A stretch of 64,000 nt of DNA from Streptomyces sp. NBC_00775 (GTDB lineage: Bacteria; Actinomycetota; Actinomycetes; Streptomycetales; Streptomycetaceae). The stretch lies in the NCBI RefSeq assembly GCF_036347135.1, contig NZ_CP108938.1, positions 7,874,001 through 7,938,000 on the forward strand, written 5' to 3'. Positions within the stretch are counted from its first letter, which is position 1. Each line of letters starts with the position of its first letter. The notes beneath the pieces are model-generated. The model made no database searches and had not been told where the DNA came from. It saw only the letters and a list, made by a program, of their open reading frames with translations. Both the position numbers and the translations under genes were made by a program. Of the stretch, positions 1 to 5,592 are shown in pieces.

Positions 1-1729
1 TGTCGTCCTGCCGAACGAGGCACCGTTCGCCCCGGGTTCGGCCGAGCGGACCGCCCTGGAGACGTACGAGAAGACGTACGGCATTCCGCAGGTCGACGCC
101 TACACCTGGGCCCATCCGGAGGTCGGTCTCGACTACACCGACCAGAACGGCGGCTGGTCGGGCGTGCTGGACGGGGCGCGCACCCAGGTCACCGCGGCCG
201 GCCGGGCGGGCGCCTTCGGCTACCTCGACGGGCCGCTGACCTTCGAGGACAACGACCCGTCGGTGCAGGAGAGCTACGGTTACGCGGCCCACCCGAGGGA
301 CGGGTTCACCAGCTATCTCGACGCGCCCACGGGTGGCACCCTGCTCGGCGAGTACGCGCACGACGGGCGCCGCGAACTCGTGCTGACCTTCGCGTACAAC
401 CAGTACCAGCAGCAGTTCCGGGTCCTTGCCCGCGGTGTCGTCGAATGGCTGACCCAAGGCGTACACCTCGGGCAGAACCGCAACTACTTCTCGGTGCATG
501 TCGACGACGTCTTCGCGCCCGACGCCCGCTGGGACACCACCGACAACTGCACACCGGGCGACTACGACTGCCAGTCCGGCGGCGCCACGACCACCGACAT
601 CCGGATGACGGCGGCCGACGCGCAGTACGCGGCCCAGTGGGAGCAGGCCAACGGTTTCACCCTGGACATGGTCTACAACGCGGGCTCCGGTGAGGTGTGG
701 AAGACCGAGAACGGCGGCACCGACGCGCTCGCCACCCAGCTGCTCGCCGACAAGGCCAAGTACCGCTGGGTGAACCACACCTACACGCACCTGTTCCTCG
801 GCTGCCTCCAGGACGTCACCGTGGTCCCCTGGCAGTGCAGGAAGAACGCCGACGGAACCACCCAGTGGACGAGCCGCGCCGACATCTCCGGCGAGATCTC
901 CGACAACTACAACTGGGGTGTCCAGAAGGGCCTTCCGCTCGACCGGACCGAACTGGTCACCGGTGAGCACTCGGGCCTGAAGACGCTGCCCCAGCAGCCC
1001 GACGACAACCCGAACCTCGCGGGCGCCCTCGCGGCGGGCGGCATCAAGTGGACGGGTTCCGACAACTCCCGTGAACCCGCCCAGCGTTCGGTCGGCAACG
1101 CGCTGACCGTGCCCCGCTATCCGATGAACGTGTACTACAACGCCGGTACGGCGGCCGAGATGGCCGACGAGTACAACTGGATCTACACCTCCAGGGCCGA
1201 CGGCGGCAGCGGCATCTGCGAGAACAACGCGACCTCCACGTGCCTGCCGGCGCCGCTGGACACCGCCACCGGCTATGCGGCGTACATCGTCCCGCTGGAG
1301 GCGCACACCGCCCTCGGGCACGTCATCACCAACGATCCGCGACCGCACTACGTCCACCAGTCCAACCTGGCCGAGGAGCGCATCCTCTACCCGGTCCTGG
1401 ACAAGGTGCTCGGCGACTACAAGGCGCTCTACGCCGACAACACCCCGCTGGTGAACCCCCGGCAGAGTGCGACCGGCACCGAGCTGCAGCGCCGAACCGC
1501 CTGGCAGACGGCCGTCGCGAACGGCAAGGTCACGGCGTACCGCGTCGGCACCACCGTCACCGTCACCGCCCCGTCCGGGACCCAGATCCCGGTGACCGCA
1601 CCCGAAGGGACCAAGAAGCAACTCCTGCTCGGCACCACCGCGTTCGGAACGCCGTACGCGGGTGAGCGCTCGGCCTGGACCACGCCGGAGCTCCTGCAGT
1701 CCGCTCTCAAGCTGACCCTGCCCGCGTAG
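1..1729 (+). CDS. Agd3-type polysaccharide deacetylase (5'-truncated by window edge)
   Basis: The frame is open from base 2 to a TAG at 1727-1729, so this is the C-terminal 575 residues of a larger protein. It shows a NodB-like metal-dependent deacetylase signature: an Asp-Asp pair in HVDDVF (about 497-514) and the His pair of NHTYTH (about 773-790), followed by GEHSG. These motifs and the overall layout match the Agd3 family, which de-N-acetylates galactosaminogalactan in Aspergillus and has bacterial relatives. By inference it acts outside the membrane on an amino-sugar polymer; any signal peptide lies upstream of the window. The next genes are a PelF-type glycosyltransferase and a spherulin-4-type protein, the same partners Agd3 has in fungi. 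A hairpin separates it from the next gene, so it may be a separate transcript. The family call is from motifs and context, not a search. Confidence 0.75.
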   Translation, partial: VVLPNEAPFAPGSAERTALETYEKTYGIPQVDAYTWAHPEVGLDYTDQNGGWSGVLDGARTQVTAAGRAGAFGYLDGPLTFEDNDPSVQESYGYAAHPRDGFTSYLDAPTGGTLLGEYAHDGRRELVLTFAYNQYQQQFRVLARGVVEWLTQGVHLGQNRNYFSVHVDDVFAPDARWDTTDNCTPGDYDCQSGGATTTDIRMTAADAQYAAQWEQANGFTLDMVYNAGSGEVWKTENGGTDALATQLLADKAKYRWVNHTYTHLFLGCLQDVTVVPWQCRKNADGTTQWTSRADISGEISDNYNWGVQKGLPLDRTELVTGEHSGLKTLPQQPDDNPNLAGALAAGGIKWTGSDNSREPAQRSVGNALTVPRYPMNVYYNAGTAAEMADEYNWIYTSRADGGSGICENNATSTCLPAPLDTATGYAAYIVPLEAHTALGHVITNDPRPHYVHQSNLAEERILYPVLDKVLGDYKALYADNTPLVNPRQSATGTELQRRTAWQTAVANGKVTAYRVGTTVTVTAPSGTQIPVTAPEGTKKQLLLGTTAFGTPYAGERSAWTTPELLQSALKLTLPA

Positions 1730-1740
1730 GGCACGGGCAG

Positions 1741-1792
1741 CTCAGCCGCACGACGCGCACCCCGGCCGTGACCGGCTGGGGTGCGTGCTGAG
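1741..1792 (+). terminator. Hairpin terminator after the deacetylase gene
   Basis: A 15-bp stem (1754-1768 with 1773-1787, two G-T wobbles, loop TGAC) is extended by an outer CTCAGC/GCTGAG arm (1741-1746 with 1787-1792). There is no U-tract, which is usual for high-GC actinobacterial terminators. It sits 12 bases past the stop codon and about 70 bases before the next start. Confidence 0.6.
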
Positions 1793-1859
1793 CCGTAGTT
1801 GAACCGGGGGTCCGGGGGTGGCCCTCCGGGAAGAAACAGTCACAGGGGGAACGCGCGTG

Positions 1860-3380
1860 ATGCGCAACGGCCGTCATGTCACCATGCTCACCGAAGGCAC
1901 CTATCCGCATGTCCACGGCGGGGTCAGCACCTGGTGCGACCAGCTCGTGAAGGGCATGCCGGAGGTCGACTTCCACATCGTCTCGCTCACCGGCAGCGGC
2001 CGCGAACCCGTGACCTGGGAGCTGCCGCCCAACGTCTACCGGCACACCTCCGTGCCGACCTGGGGCCCGCGGCCGGGGCGCGCACGGGCGCCGCTGGGCC
2101 GGGCCCGCCGTCGTTTCACCGACACCTACGAACGCTTCCTGCTCGCCTTCCTCGACCCGGACGCGCACGGCGACTTCGGCGAGGCGCTGTACGAGCTCGC
2201 CCAACTCGCCCGCGACGGACGGCTGTCGGCGGCGCTGCGCACCGAGACCGCGCTGCGTTCGCTGATGTGGATCTGGTCGATGCCGCATCTGCCCACGGCC
2301 GCCGCCCGGCCCACCGTGCACGACGCGCTCACCGCCACCGACCTGCTGGAACACGCGCTGCGCCCGCTCGGCGTCCGGATCCCCGAGGACTCCGTGGCGC
2401 ACGCGGTCAGCAGCGGCCTCGCCACCCTGCCCGCCCTCGCCGCACACCACCTCGACGGGGTCCCGTTCCTGCTCACCGAGCACGGCATCTATCTGCGCGA
2501 GCGCTACCTCGGCTACCGCAGCGGCGAACAGCGCTGGCCCGTCAAGGCGTTCATGCTCGGCTTCTACCGCGAGCTGAACTCGCTGGGCTACCGGGCGGCC
2601 GACCTGATCACCCCCTGCAACCAGTACAACCGCCGCTGGGAGGAGCGCGGCGGCGCCGACTCCGACCGGATCCGCACGGTCTACAACGGCGTCGACCCGC
2701 ACGCCTTCCCGCACGCGGGCCCCGAACCGGCCGTCCCCACCCTCACCTGGTGCGGCCGCGTCGACCCCATCAAGGACCTCGAAACACTGCTGCGCGCGTA
2801 CGGCATGGTGCGCGCCGAGATGCCCGAGACCCGGCTGCGCCTGTTCGGCCCGGTGCCGCCCGGCGGGGAGGCGTACCGGACCCGGCTGGAGAAGCTCGCC
2901 GCCGAACTGGGTGTCACGGACGGCCTGACCTTCGAGGGCCGCATCAGCGAGGTGTGGCGCGCCTACGCGGCGGGTCATGTGGTGATGCTCTCCTCCATCT
3001 CGGAGGGCTTCCCGTTCTCGATCATCGAGGCGATGTCCTGCGGCCGTACGACGGTGTCGACCGACGTCGGCGGAGTGCGCGAGGCGGTCGGCGACACGGG
3101 CATCGTGGTGCCGCCGCGCGAACCGGAGAAAATGGCCGCCGCCGCACTCACTCTGCTGCGCGACGACGAACGGCGCCTGAAGTTGGGGGAGTTGGCGCGT
3201 CAGCGCGTCATCGACCGGTTCACCCTGCGCCGTTCCGTGGATGCCTTCCGGACGATCTACCAGGAGCTGGCGGGCCTGCCCGAGGTGTACGAGCCCACCG
3301 TCGAGACCGTCGCCGACTGGACCCTCGAACTGCGCGACCCCTGGTACCAGGCGGTCGCCACGGACGGGACCGGCTGGTGA
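1860..3380 (+). CDS. pelF: PelF-type family 4 glycosyltransferase
   Basis: Predicted cytoplasmic GT-B glycosyltransferase of 506 residues that would polymerise UDP-activated hexosamine into an exopolysaccharide. The N-terminus reads TEGTYPHVHGGVSTW (residues about 11-25), the acceptor-side signature of PelF-like GT4 enzymes. The donor-side E-x7-E motif is EGFPFSIIE near residue 381, and CGRVDPIKD marks the start of the second Rossmann domain. The ATG at 1860 has AGGGGGA nine bases upstream; a GTG at 1857 is an equally spaced alternative, and a GTG at 1818 is less likely. Its stop overlaps the next gene by GTGA, so it is translationally coupled to the membrane protein. Family assignment is firm; the actual sugar is inferred. 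Confidence 0.88.
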   Translation: MRNGRHVTMLTEGTYPHVHGGVSTWCDQLVKGMPEVDFHIVSLTGSGREPVTWELPPNVYRHTSVPTWGPRPGRARAPLGRARRRFTDTYERFLLAFLDPDAHGDFGEALYELAQLARDGRLSAALRTETALRSLMWIWSMPHLPTAAARPTVHDALTATDLLEHALRPLGVRIPEDSVAHAVSSGLATLPALAAHHLDGVPFLLTEHGIYLRERYLGYRSGEQRWPVKAFMLGFYRELNSLGYRAADLITPCNQYNRRWEERGGADSDRIRTVYNGVDPHAFPHAGPEPAVPTLTWCGRVDPIKDLETLLRAYGMVRAEMPETRLRLFGPVPPGGEAYRTRLEKLAAELGVTDGLTFEGRISEVWRAYAAGHVVMLSSISEGFPFSIIEAMSCGRTTVSTDVGGVREAVGDTGIVVPPREPEKMAAAALTLLRDDERRLKLGELARQRVIDRFTLRRSVDAFRTIYQELAGLPEVYEPTVETVADWTLELRDPWYQAVATDGTGW

Positions 3381-4924
3381 GCGGTTCCCTGCGGATGCCG
3401 CCCGGCACCTACGAGGACACCCTCCCGTACGTGCCCCGGCAGCGCCGCCCGCCCAACTGGGCGCAGCCCGACCCGATCGAGGAACTCGCCGAGCGGCTCG
3501 GTGAGTTCATCGCCGCGGCCGTCCACCCCGACGAGATAGCCGCACTCCTCGAATCCGACGGCATGTCGGACGACCAGATACGCCGGCGCTACGGCGTCAA
3601 GAACTCCTTCGCCCTCGCGGAGGAGCTGTACGAACGGGTCGAGCGTCACTACCCCGAGCCTGCGGGGCCGGCCCACGACCCCTGGCGACTCGGCCTGCTG
3701 GGCTGCCTGTTGCGGGGTGTGGTCTTCGCTCTCCCTGGCCTCGGATACGTGCTGGGGGCGCCGCTCCTCGCGGGCCCGAAGGGCGGGTTCGGGCTCCCTG
3801 CCGGGACCGTCCCGCTGCTCGCCGGTGCGCTGTGCGGCTGGACCTGGAACCAGGGGCTGGCCCACCGGGCGTACTCCTGGCTGGGCCTTGGCGACCGCTC
3901 GGCCGCCCGCCGCGCACTGCTCGTCGGAGCGCCGGTGGGTGTGCTGCTCGGCTCCCTGGTCGCCCTCGCCGCGGCGGGCACGACCCACCCGGGCACCGCG
4001 GTCGCCTTCGCCGCCGGACAGTCCTGCTATCTGGGCGCGGCCACCGTCCTGCTGGTCATGGGCCGCGAACGGGCCCTGCTCGGCGTCCTGTCACCCATGG
4101 CGGCGGGCGCGGTCCTGGCCCTGGTCCACCCGGTGCCCGACCTCGCGAGAGCGGTCCTGCTGCTGGGCTCGCTCGCGGCGGTCGCGCTGCTCGCCCTGCT
4201 CGAAGTGGCGCCCGCGGTAAGGGATGTGGGGCAGGGGAGCTGGGGCGCGGGTCTCACCGCGCTGCTGCCGTTCGGGAACCTGCGGGGTGCCGCGGACGGG
4301 TCGGCGCGACCGGACGCGCAGGGGCCGGTGGCCGCCGCCCCCTGGCTCACCGGATCCCTGCCGTACGCCCTGTTCGGGCTCGGCAGCGGGGTCCTCGTGC
4401 TGTACGCGGCGCTCGGGGACGTACTGGCGGGCGCCCACACCGCGGTGGCCGCGCCGGCCGCGGTCGCGCTGACGCTCAGCATGGGCCCGGCCGAATGGCT
4501 GCTCTTCCGGTTCCGCAGCGGCAGTCTCGCCGGGCTGCGCTCCAGCAGCACGTCGAAGGACTTCTGGCGGACCACCGCGATCACCCTCGTCCAGTGCCTC
4601 ACCGGCTATCTCGTCGCGCTGCTCGCGCTCAGCCTCGCCGCCTCCGCGCTCTGGCCGCACGCGCCCGCGACCACGGGCGGGGTCCGGCTCGCCGGGCTGC
4701 TCCTGCTGGGCGTGGTCCTGTGGACCGGGCTGCTGCTCCAGTCCTTCGGCGCCGTCACCAGCGCCGCCGTGGTCTGCTGTGTCGCGGCGCTCGCCCAGAC
4801 CGCGGCCCTCGCGACGCACGCGGGCAGCCCGCACTGGGTGGGGCTGATCGTGTACGGGGCGGCGGCCGGGGCCCAAGCGGGCCTGGTCTGCGGCCTGTTG
4901 GGGAGGGCGACCGCACACCGATGA
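3377..4924 (+). CDS. Multi-pass membrane protein of the Pel/GAG-like locus
   Basis: A 515-residue protein with a soluble N-terminal part (about 1-100, containing a helical stretch around SDDQIRRRYGVKNS) followed by roughly 11-13 hydrophobic segments up to the C-terminus. It starts with a GTG overlapping the PelF stop (GTGA) and ends overlapping the next ATG (ATGA), so all three genes are one coupled operon. The position and membrane character suggest the export or assembly partner of the glycosyltransferase, the place PelG holds in Pel operons. I do not see the conserved PelG N-terminus, however, so the function is unassigned. The upstream extension of this frame through the pelF gene is a high-GC artefact. 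Confidence 0.85.
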   Translation: MSGSLRMPPGTYEDTLPYVPRQRRPPNWAQPDPIEELAERLGEFIAAAVHPDEIAALLESDGMSDDQIRRRYGVKNSFALAEELYERVERHYPEPAGPAHDPWRLGLLGCLLRGVVFALPGLGYVLGAPLLAGPKGGFGLPAGTVPLLAGALCGWTWNQGLAHRAYSWLGLGDRSAARRALLVGAPVGVLLGSLVALAAAGTTHPGTAVAFAAGQSCYLGAATVLLVMGRERALLGVLSPMAAGAVLALVHPVPDLARAVLLLGSLAAVALLALLEVAPAVRDVGQGSWGAGLTALLPFGNLRGAADGSARPDAQGPVAAAPWLTGSLPYALFGLGSGVLVLYAALGDVLAGAHTAVAAPAAVALTLSMGPAEWLLFRFRSGSLAGLRSSSTSKDFWRTTAITLVQCLTGYLVALLALSLAASALWPHAPATTGGVRLAGLLLLGVVLWTGLLLQSFGAVTSAAVVCCVAALAQTAALATHAGSPHWVGLIVYGAAAGAQAGLVCGLLGRATAHR

Positions 4925-5592
4925 GCCTGCCCAGCACCTCCGGGACCCTCCTGGTCCCGTACTACGAGCACCCGTCCGTCCGCCCCGCCGAATGGGACGC
5001 CCTCATCGCCGCAGCCCCCCGCCTCCACGCCGTCGTGCTCAACCCGGCCAGCGGCCCCGGCGAGCGCCCCGACCCGGCGTTCGCCGAGGTCGCCGAGCGG
5101 CTGCGCGCGGCCGACGTCCGGGTGCTCGGGTACGCGGACACGGACTATGGCCGCAGACCCATGACCGACGTCGTACGTGAGCTGTCCCGGCACCGCGCCT
5201 GGTACGGGACCGACGGCGCGTTCCTCGACCAAGTCGCCTCGGGGGAGGCCGAGTTCACGTACTACCGGCGGCTCGCGAGGGCCGCCTGGGGCCTGGGCTG
5301 CGGCACCCTCGCCCTCAATCACGGAACGGTGCCGCACCCCTCGTACGCCCGCATCGCCGACGTACTGGTGACGTTCGAGGGCCCGTGGGCGACGTACCGA
5401 AGGAACCGTCTGCCGCCGTGGACGGATGCCGGTGCGCGGCTGTGCCACCTCGTGTACGGCGTGCCGGCCGGGGTCGACCTGGCGGCGTCGGCACGGGAGC
5501 GGGGCGCCACCCTCCACTGCGCGGTGCCCGGTGTGGGCGACCATCCCTGGGGAACGTTGCCGCACGCCCTGAAGGCGACCGGCTCGCGCTGA
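4921..5592 (+). CDS. Spherulin-4 family (GH135/PelA hydrolase-like) protein
   Basis: A 223-residue TIM-barrel-type protein with the family landmarks in order: LLVPYYEHP (10-18), VVLNPASGPG (38-47), VLGYADTDYGRRP (68-80), WYGTDGAFLDQV (94-105) and VTFEG (150-154). Relatives include fungal Sph3 (GH135), which cleaves galactosaminogalactan, and the hydrolase domain of PelA. In those enzymes the strand after 'dGiFl' ends in Asp-Glu; here it is Asp103-Gln104, while Glu153 is kept. No signal peptide is visible, which is odd for an enzyme meant to act on a secreted polymer. It may be a non-catalytic or cytoplasmic partner. Translation is coupled to the preceding gene by an ATGA overlap. Confidence 0.85.
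   Translation: MSLPSTSGTLLVPYYEHPSVRPAEWDALIAAAPRLHAVVLNPASGPGERPDPAFAEVAERLRAADVRVLGYADTDYGRRPMTDVVRELSRHRAWYGTDGAFLDQVASGEAEFTYYRRLARAAWGLGCGTLALNHGTVPHPSYARIADVLVTFEGPWATYRRNRLPPWTDAGARLCHLVYGVPAGVDLAASARERGATLHCAVPGVGDHPWGTLPHALKATGSR

Follow-up and report, generated by a model that had tools for sequence, protein, structure and literature searches.

Background

The closest described relatives of the gene cluster treated here are the bacterial agd3 operons identified by Bamford et al. 2020, all of which, in the passages of that paper devoted to them, encode a cytoplasmic glycosyltransferase (GT) and a multi-spanning membrane protein, consistently accompanied by GH114 and, in some Actinobacteria, by spherulin-4 (PMC7229062). 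The galactosaminogalactan (GAG) cluster of Aspergillus comprises uge3, gtb3, sph3, agd3 and ega3 (PMC8224951, PMC7229062), and the Gram-positive Pel operon has the composition pelDEA(DA)FG, PelA-hydrolase-like and galE genes flanking the Pel operon in bacilli (PMC7112168). Here we analyze four genes at the left edge of a 64,000-nucleotide stretch of the genome of Streptomyces sp. NBC_00775 (the window, G000:C1:7874001-7938000, in a source genome of 11.1 Mb on a single contig, with the closest named relatives of its proteins in Streptomyces), which encode a distant Agd3 relative, a PelF-like GT, a polytopic membrane protein (MEM) and a spherulin-4 protein. To our knowledge, the genes for the matrix and wall polymers of Streptomyces are only partly known.

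An earlier note on this stretch had described these four genes, and all of them are present, the last three overlapping by GTGA and ATGA. The same note took the set for a new mixture of fungal-type and Pel-type parts, which it is not as a kind, because Bamford et al. 2020 had already described bacterial agd3 operons with those functions (PMC7229062). The window shares with those operons an Agd3-like deacetylase, although of distant kinship, a cytoplasmic GT and a multi-spanning MEM. What is added to the known kind, and lies beyond the account given in those passages, is a MEM family apart from PelG, a catalytic spherulin-4 without a signal peptide, a trio of sugar genes (LegB-like dehydratase, nucleotidyltransferase and short-chain dehydrogenase/reductase, SDR) in related clusters, and a second operon whose spherulin-4 lacks the catalytic Glu. 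A search of the open literature, with subscription papers and supplements outside it, recognized no account of any of these four, and PMC7229062 was the only paper recognized as treating such clusters. The likeness to the Aspergillus cluster as described in the two papers is one of function, comprising deacetylase, GT4 plus membrane part, and GH135, with GH114 and a GalE (at locus L200) among relatives; here, however, the GT and the membrane protein are separate genes and the operon spherulin-4 has no signal peptide. The Gram-positive Pel operon, as outlined in PMC7112168, likewise has a PelF-like GT4, a deacetylase and a membrane protein adjoining the GT, but the window locus has no PelG match and its deacetylase is of the Agd3 type; no PelD or PelE was recognized among the neighboring genes, no search aimed at them having been made.

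A recurrent gene set of the bacterial agd3-operon kind

We give a probability slightly better than even to the view that the locus, as one of the bacterial agd3 operons, encodes a small machine that exports a polymer of alpha-linked N-acetyl-hexosamine; the polymer, its export and the localization of the proteins are what we infer from sequence. At the membrane's inner face the GT4 would lengthen the chain, using nucleotide-diphosphate-activated N-acetyl-hexosamine, and MEM, coupled to the GT via its N-terminal domain, would pass the growing chain outward. Outside, the secreted Agd3-like enzyme may strip some of the acetyl groups, leaving a cationic polymer, and the GH114 product, whose gene is present in 61 of the best 80 loci described below, may trim it. 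Spherulin-4 would remain in the cytosol, cutting stalled or mislaid inner chains or setting chain length.

The recurrence that the earlier note had expected is borne out, as gene set and order are found again across many species. In the scan of named genomes with the MEM alignment (A4) the best 80 of 420 relatives were kept, 78 in Streptomyces and 2 in actinobacteria without a genus name; these loci contained the GT in 77 cases, the deacetylase in 76, spherulin-4 in 73, GH114 in 61 and the LegB-like dehydratase in none, and the four without GT or deacetylase start at a contig end. In a survey of 101 Streptomyces genomes the deacetylase was found in 53 (E ≤ 1e-10), PF12138 in 72 and MEM in 64 (E ≤ 0.001, some of them via the N-terminal domain alone). 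A MEM match lay within 6 kb in 57, and a spherulin-4 gene within 10.5 kb in 53, of the 64 deacetylase rows, L057 and L058 being the exceptions that were read, and spherulin-4 occurred somewhere in the genome for 52 of the 53 deacetylase genomes. GH114 was at most 2 kb from spherulin-4 in 40 of 53 high-scoring cases versus 2 of 69 lower-scoring ones; the sole GH114 match of the source genome is far from the window cluster. At the level of the phylum, 7 of 198 genomes had a PF12138 match and 13 of 296 had MEM (E ≤ 1e-6).

Three layouts could be distinguished. Class A, that of the window, runs deacetylase, GT, MEM and spherulin-4, often with GH114. Class B adds a LegB-like 4,6-dehydratase, a sugar-1-phosphate nucleotidyltransferase and an SDR ahead of spherulin-4. 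Class C is the second operon of the source genome (L005:8355-13888, outside the window), made of GT, MEM, SDR and a spherulin-4 without the catalytic Glu; of 20 further class C loci 19 shared this order, and L173 showed SDR and spherulin-4 only. The second operon is 40% identical to the window in its GT, 42% in its spherulin-4, and 45% in its MEM over a 65-residue N-terminal domain only (2e-10), a domain that occurs at only two places below E 0.01 in the source genome. No deacetylase was found in the 18 kb around it, and its spherulin-4 is followed by a gene of 392 amino acids that we tentatively read as MoeZ-like. Among named relatives, 64 of 77 share the window's 4-nucleotide overlap of GT and MEM, and 50 of 70 that of MEM and spherulin-4, the start nearest the MEM stop being chosen for the latter count, which favors overlaps.

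The deacetylase and its distant kinship with Agd3

The N-terminus of the deacetylase looks by eye like a signal peptide. Its kinship with Agd3 is a distant one, joined through intermediate sequences. The Agd3 protein of locus L063, with 93.6 bits on PF25115 and 45.7 bits on PF25116, is 25% identical to the window deacetylase (1e-37, BLASTP), and a profile of 16 rows that includes the divergent proteins of L057, L058, L063 and L064 (A2) matched Agd3 itself (PDB 6nwz, 3.9e-21) over its CBM and CE domains. According to PMC7229062, the catalytic motifs CM1-4 of Agd3 comprise D377, D378, H510, H514, R613 and H668. Their counterparts in the window protein are D266, D267, H357xxxH361, R470 and H550, kept among 28 homologs in 28 (D266), 27 (D267), 27 (H357), 27 (H361), 26 (R470) and 28 cases (H550), with R470 changed in L058 and L201. 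The Agd3-like assignment of the earlier note thus stands on the motif set and on homology via profile A2 and L063, but not on the protein's own Pfam scores, given below. A class B relative just attains the PF25115 cut-off (27.7 bits). As a single sequence the window deacetylase matched no solved structure, and a search of the source genome with Pfam Agd3_CE gave no match anywhere, the controls being equally unmatched, and so carries no information.

Two relatives stand apart from the cluster. A gene in genome G243 (L057:5450-7615) encodes a deacetylase relative with altered metal-binding residues and has no GT or MEM within its 15 kb, and an Agd3-like gene on a Burkholderia stagnalis plasmid (L197:9908-12031) has no gene annotated as a GT within the 22 kb viewed.

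The glycosyltransferase and the membrane protein

The PelF-type GT4 of the earlier note is confirmed by NF038011 (PelF), which the window GT matches with 170.8 bits over a cut-off of 100, together with 201.4 bits on PF11997. Because a PelF adjoining a true PelG scores 506.8 bits on NF038011, we consider the window GT a side branch of PelF. A tree built from 35 GTs sets the two PelF rows apart on a branch of 4.84; in it classes C, A and B each form one group, the last with weak support.

Other GT4 models, for example MshA and BshA, are also matched below their cut-offs, and GT4 enzymes of these two types use small acceptors. This would suit a product that stays attached to lipid or wall, as a glycolipid or wall polymer, with MEM flipping a lipid-linked chain. 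We give that alternative a small probability at best: the Agd3-type deacetylase and the GH114 of most named relatives suggest a long polymer, and no gene for lipid linkage was recognized among the neighbors read, although no targeted search was made for one.

MEM has about 11 hydrophobic segments by hydropathy and a conserved N-terminal region ahead of the first. The window protein matched no model in Pfam or NCBIfam, and attempts to relate MEM to families in Pfam or the PDB gave no kinship. In S. coelicolor, SCO2176, a candidate counterpart at most, is listed in one paper as a predicted membrane protein. Judged from its sequences, it is a family of its own with a conserved N-terminal domain, present also in Deinococcus and Kocuria. 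In all loci read with enough flank the GT adjoins MEM, except in L218, where one gene lies between them. MEM sits where PelG sits in L063, whose order is PelF-PelG-Agd3 (L064 being alike) and whose PelG scores 463.6 bits on its Pfam model, and GT-MEM beside an Agd3-like gene is found at further loci too; we regard the correspondence as an analogy of place. The earlier note had proposed a new membrane protein in the place of PelG, and this place is indeed comparable, while membership of the Pel family did not follow. PelG homology was likewise considered and dropped, no profile similarity being found (hhalign probability 0.3, with a PelG profile of two sequences and hence a weak test).

Spherulin-4 and its predicted place in the cell

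The window spherulin-4 scores 108.5 bits on PF12138 and matches Sph3 (PDB 5c5g, 3.8e-14). For the catalytic pair of Sph3, the inactive variant in PMC8546845 is D166A, and PMC12054363 prints Asp196/Glu222; we took the pair as Asp166/Glu222, considering the printed 196 a slip. All 104 distinct class A/B sequences (120 rows) retain both. Of the 22 distinct class C sequences (24 rows), 21 retain the Asp and none the Glu, whose position is taken by S, R, A or T. A loss of catalytic residues had at first been suspected for class A/B as well, because the Asp is followed by Q or R (Q in 94 and R in 10 of the 104); this was dropped once the papers gave the catalytic pair, and it holds for class C alone.

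A cytosolic spherulin-4 might instead not be an enzyme in vivo but serve the synthase as a subunit that binds carbohydrate or acts as a scaffold. The retention of the gene in class C in spite of the lost Glu fits this alternative, as does the Q or R after the Asp in every distinct operon form, class C included; the intact catalytic pair throughout class A/B argues the other way, and we regard a purely structural role as unlikely.

Of the 115 class A/B rows that were readable, 112 have their nearest start codon 0-15 residues ahead of the first strand. A crude signal-peptide test was positive in 3 of 144 operon rows versus 7 of the 12 rows from spherulin-4 genes outside these operons, the genus having other spherulin-4 genes with signal-like starts. 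Two of the three positive rows (L009 and L052) are one place where the start would fall in the upstream gene, and the third is L027. Without a signal peptide the operon spherulin-4 cannot simply act outside the cell as Sph3 or PelA does. The earlier note's view of it as a partner of the Sph3 type therefore keeps the clear Spherulin4 domain and the catalytic pair and loses the export known for Sph3, which is not predicted here.

The same feature bears on a plain GAG/Pel-like system, in which the polymer would be poly-GalNAc/GalN, spherulin-4 would reach the outside via lysis or another route and MEM would be a far diverged PelG. GH135, GH114 and GH166 are families that act on galactosamine polymers according to PMC12054363, and the GalE in L200 points the same way. 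The absence of a signal peptide from the operon spherulin-4, when other spherulin-4 genes of the genus have signal-like starts, speaks against it together with the hhalign result for MEM and PelG, weak as that test was, so that we assign this system a low probability.

Four Deinococcus clusters have in the place of spherulin-4 a protein that by eye lacks a signal peptide; three of the four were compared with the PelA hydrolase domain 5tcb and matched it at 9.1e-11, 2.5e-11 and 1e-20; the Agd3-like proteins beside them have lipoprotein-like starts. The window spherulin-4 found no Deinococcus plasmid by tblastn at 1e-5. With signal-less proteins of GH135 and PelA type, two families of galactosamine-polymer hydrolases are predicted to occur without export signals in such clusters, which we consider the most surprising point of the analysis.

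Several observations weigh against the export machine as we propose it. The window deacetylase scores 17.8 bits on PF25115 and 15.3 bits on PF25116, below the cut-off of 27.6 for both, and a profile of the 12 Streptomyces class A/B deacetylases alone (A3) did not find Agd3. The MEM family gave no convincing PDB match and no recognized transporter fold. The localization of spherulin-4 is read from start codons and from a hydropathy test crude enough to miss 5 of the 12 other spherulin-4 rows, and it would be unusual for an exopolysaccharide operon to encode a polymer hydrolase that stays in the cytosol. Finally, spherulin-4 was not found in 7 of the best 80 loci, of which only L143 ends directly after the MEM gene, and it may for that reason be dispensable.

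Sugar supply

Because a LegB-like dehydratase, a nucleotidyltransferase and usually an SDR are present in many clusters, their sugar may be a 6-deoxy-hexosamine of the N-acetylfucosamine or N-acetylquinovosamine type, the window cluster then making a related polymer from housekeeping UDP-N-acetyl-hexosamine. In the 101 genomes a dehydratase at least 81% identical to that of L050 was found at 25 places. Each of these is no more than 4.5 kb from spherulin-4, and at 23 of them the deacetylase is no more than 8 kb away. Four Deinococcus clusters have dehydratase and nucleotidyltransferase, with an SDR in three, and the D. aquaticus enzyme scores 478.1 bits on the LegB model (cut-off 475). However, other members fall below that cut-off (443.6 bits in L050, 467.7 in D. 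grandis), the 101 genomes have 24 more dehydratase matches, of 51-55% identity, elsewhere, and the source genome has no dehydratase match at E ≤ 1e-60. The STSExYG motif of the enzyme, which we take to be of dehydratase type, occurs in decarboxylases too. The 4,6-dehydratase-like and nucleotidyltransferase genes of class B recall LegB-type nucleotide-sugar routes, from which class B differs by its added reductase-like SDR and the window cluster by having no such genes. We hold the 6-deoxy-hexosamine for a serious candidate whose chances fall somewhat short of even.

Clusters beyond Streptomyces

On the four Deinococcus plasmids the GT, MEM, dehydratase, nucleotidyltransferase and Agd3-like protein, and in three of them the SDR, lie in one cluster. 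In that of Deinococcus aquaticus a second Agd3-like gene (L196:10957-13275) adjoins the first. A mobilizable plasmid of Kocuria rosea (L195:7577-16913) has deacetylase, PelF, MEM, spherulin-4 and GH114 in a class A-like cluster. Two perfect 944-nucleotide inverted repeats that hold transposase genes enclose it, an arrangement like that of a composite transposon. At L200 a GalE (337 bits, cut-off 262.3) accompanies GT, MEM, spherulin-4 and GH114, and a neighboring protein is 46% identical to the window deacetylase, with a CBM87 match only, below cut-off; by function this set matches the whole fungal one. L058 has a nucleotidyltransferase, an SDR and a sugar dehydrogenase (TIGR03026, over cut-off), and L201 resembles it, its dehydrogenase being named by eye.

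Taking these clusters together with those of Streptomyces, a doubtful but possible extension is a separate class of exopolysaccharide machine in Actinomycetota and Deinococcota, in which a PelF-like synthase would be coupled to a new exporter family via a shared N-terminal domain and a cytosolic endo-hexosaminidase would be a regular part, its slot being taken by different hydrolase families (GH135 or PelA/GH166 type), many members having a dedicated supply of 6-deoxy-hexosamine, and whose products would be cationic polymers other than GAG and Pel.

Gene order and flanking DNA

The deacetylase gene begins 293 bp to the left of the window (ATG at G000:C1:7873708; full gene L004:1708-3729, 673 amino acids, stop at window position 1729). 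The other features are collected in Table 1.

Table 1. Features of the cluster, in window positions
Feature	Position	Strand	Start and length	Basis
Agd3-like (CE18-type) secreted deacetylase gene, 3' part (predicted)	1..1729	+		catalytic residues, profile match to 6nwz
PelF-like GT4, no signal peptide	1860..3380	+	ATG, 506 aa	NF038011, PF11997
Polytopic membrane protein (MEM), probable exporter or GT partner	3377..4924	+	GTG, 515 aa	hydropathy, family alignment
MEM N-terminal domain, residues 32-96	3470..3664	+		common to second operon's MEM
Spherulin-4 (GH135-type), no signal peptide, catalytic Asp and Glu kept	4921..5592	+	ATG, 223 aa	PF12138

Between deacetylase and GT (window 1730-1859) there is a GC-rich hairpin that possibly divides two transcripts, with a fold not clearly better than that of shuffled sequences (z -1.7, 7 of 200 shuffles). 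Upstream of the deacetylase (L004, about 1600-1707) a stretch around GCATGATTTCCAC is conserved among relatives. Of 77 such regions 51 contain the 9-mer GATTTCCAC, the source genome having GCATCATTTCCAC. Three regulator or promoter patterns known to us matched 0, 1 and 0 of the 77 regions, and a sigma-70 scan upstream of the deacetylase found none.

Conclusion

Galactosamine-containing polymers have been reported in Streptomyces (cited in PMC7229062). If our interpretation is true, the locus would give them a testable genetic basis, the deacetylase being matched in 53 of the 101 genomes sampled, and would bring with it a new exporter family and a polymer-cutting enzyme retained inside the producing cell. 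It would also bear on the proposal of a bacterial origin for the fungal cluster, which is discussed in PMC7229062.

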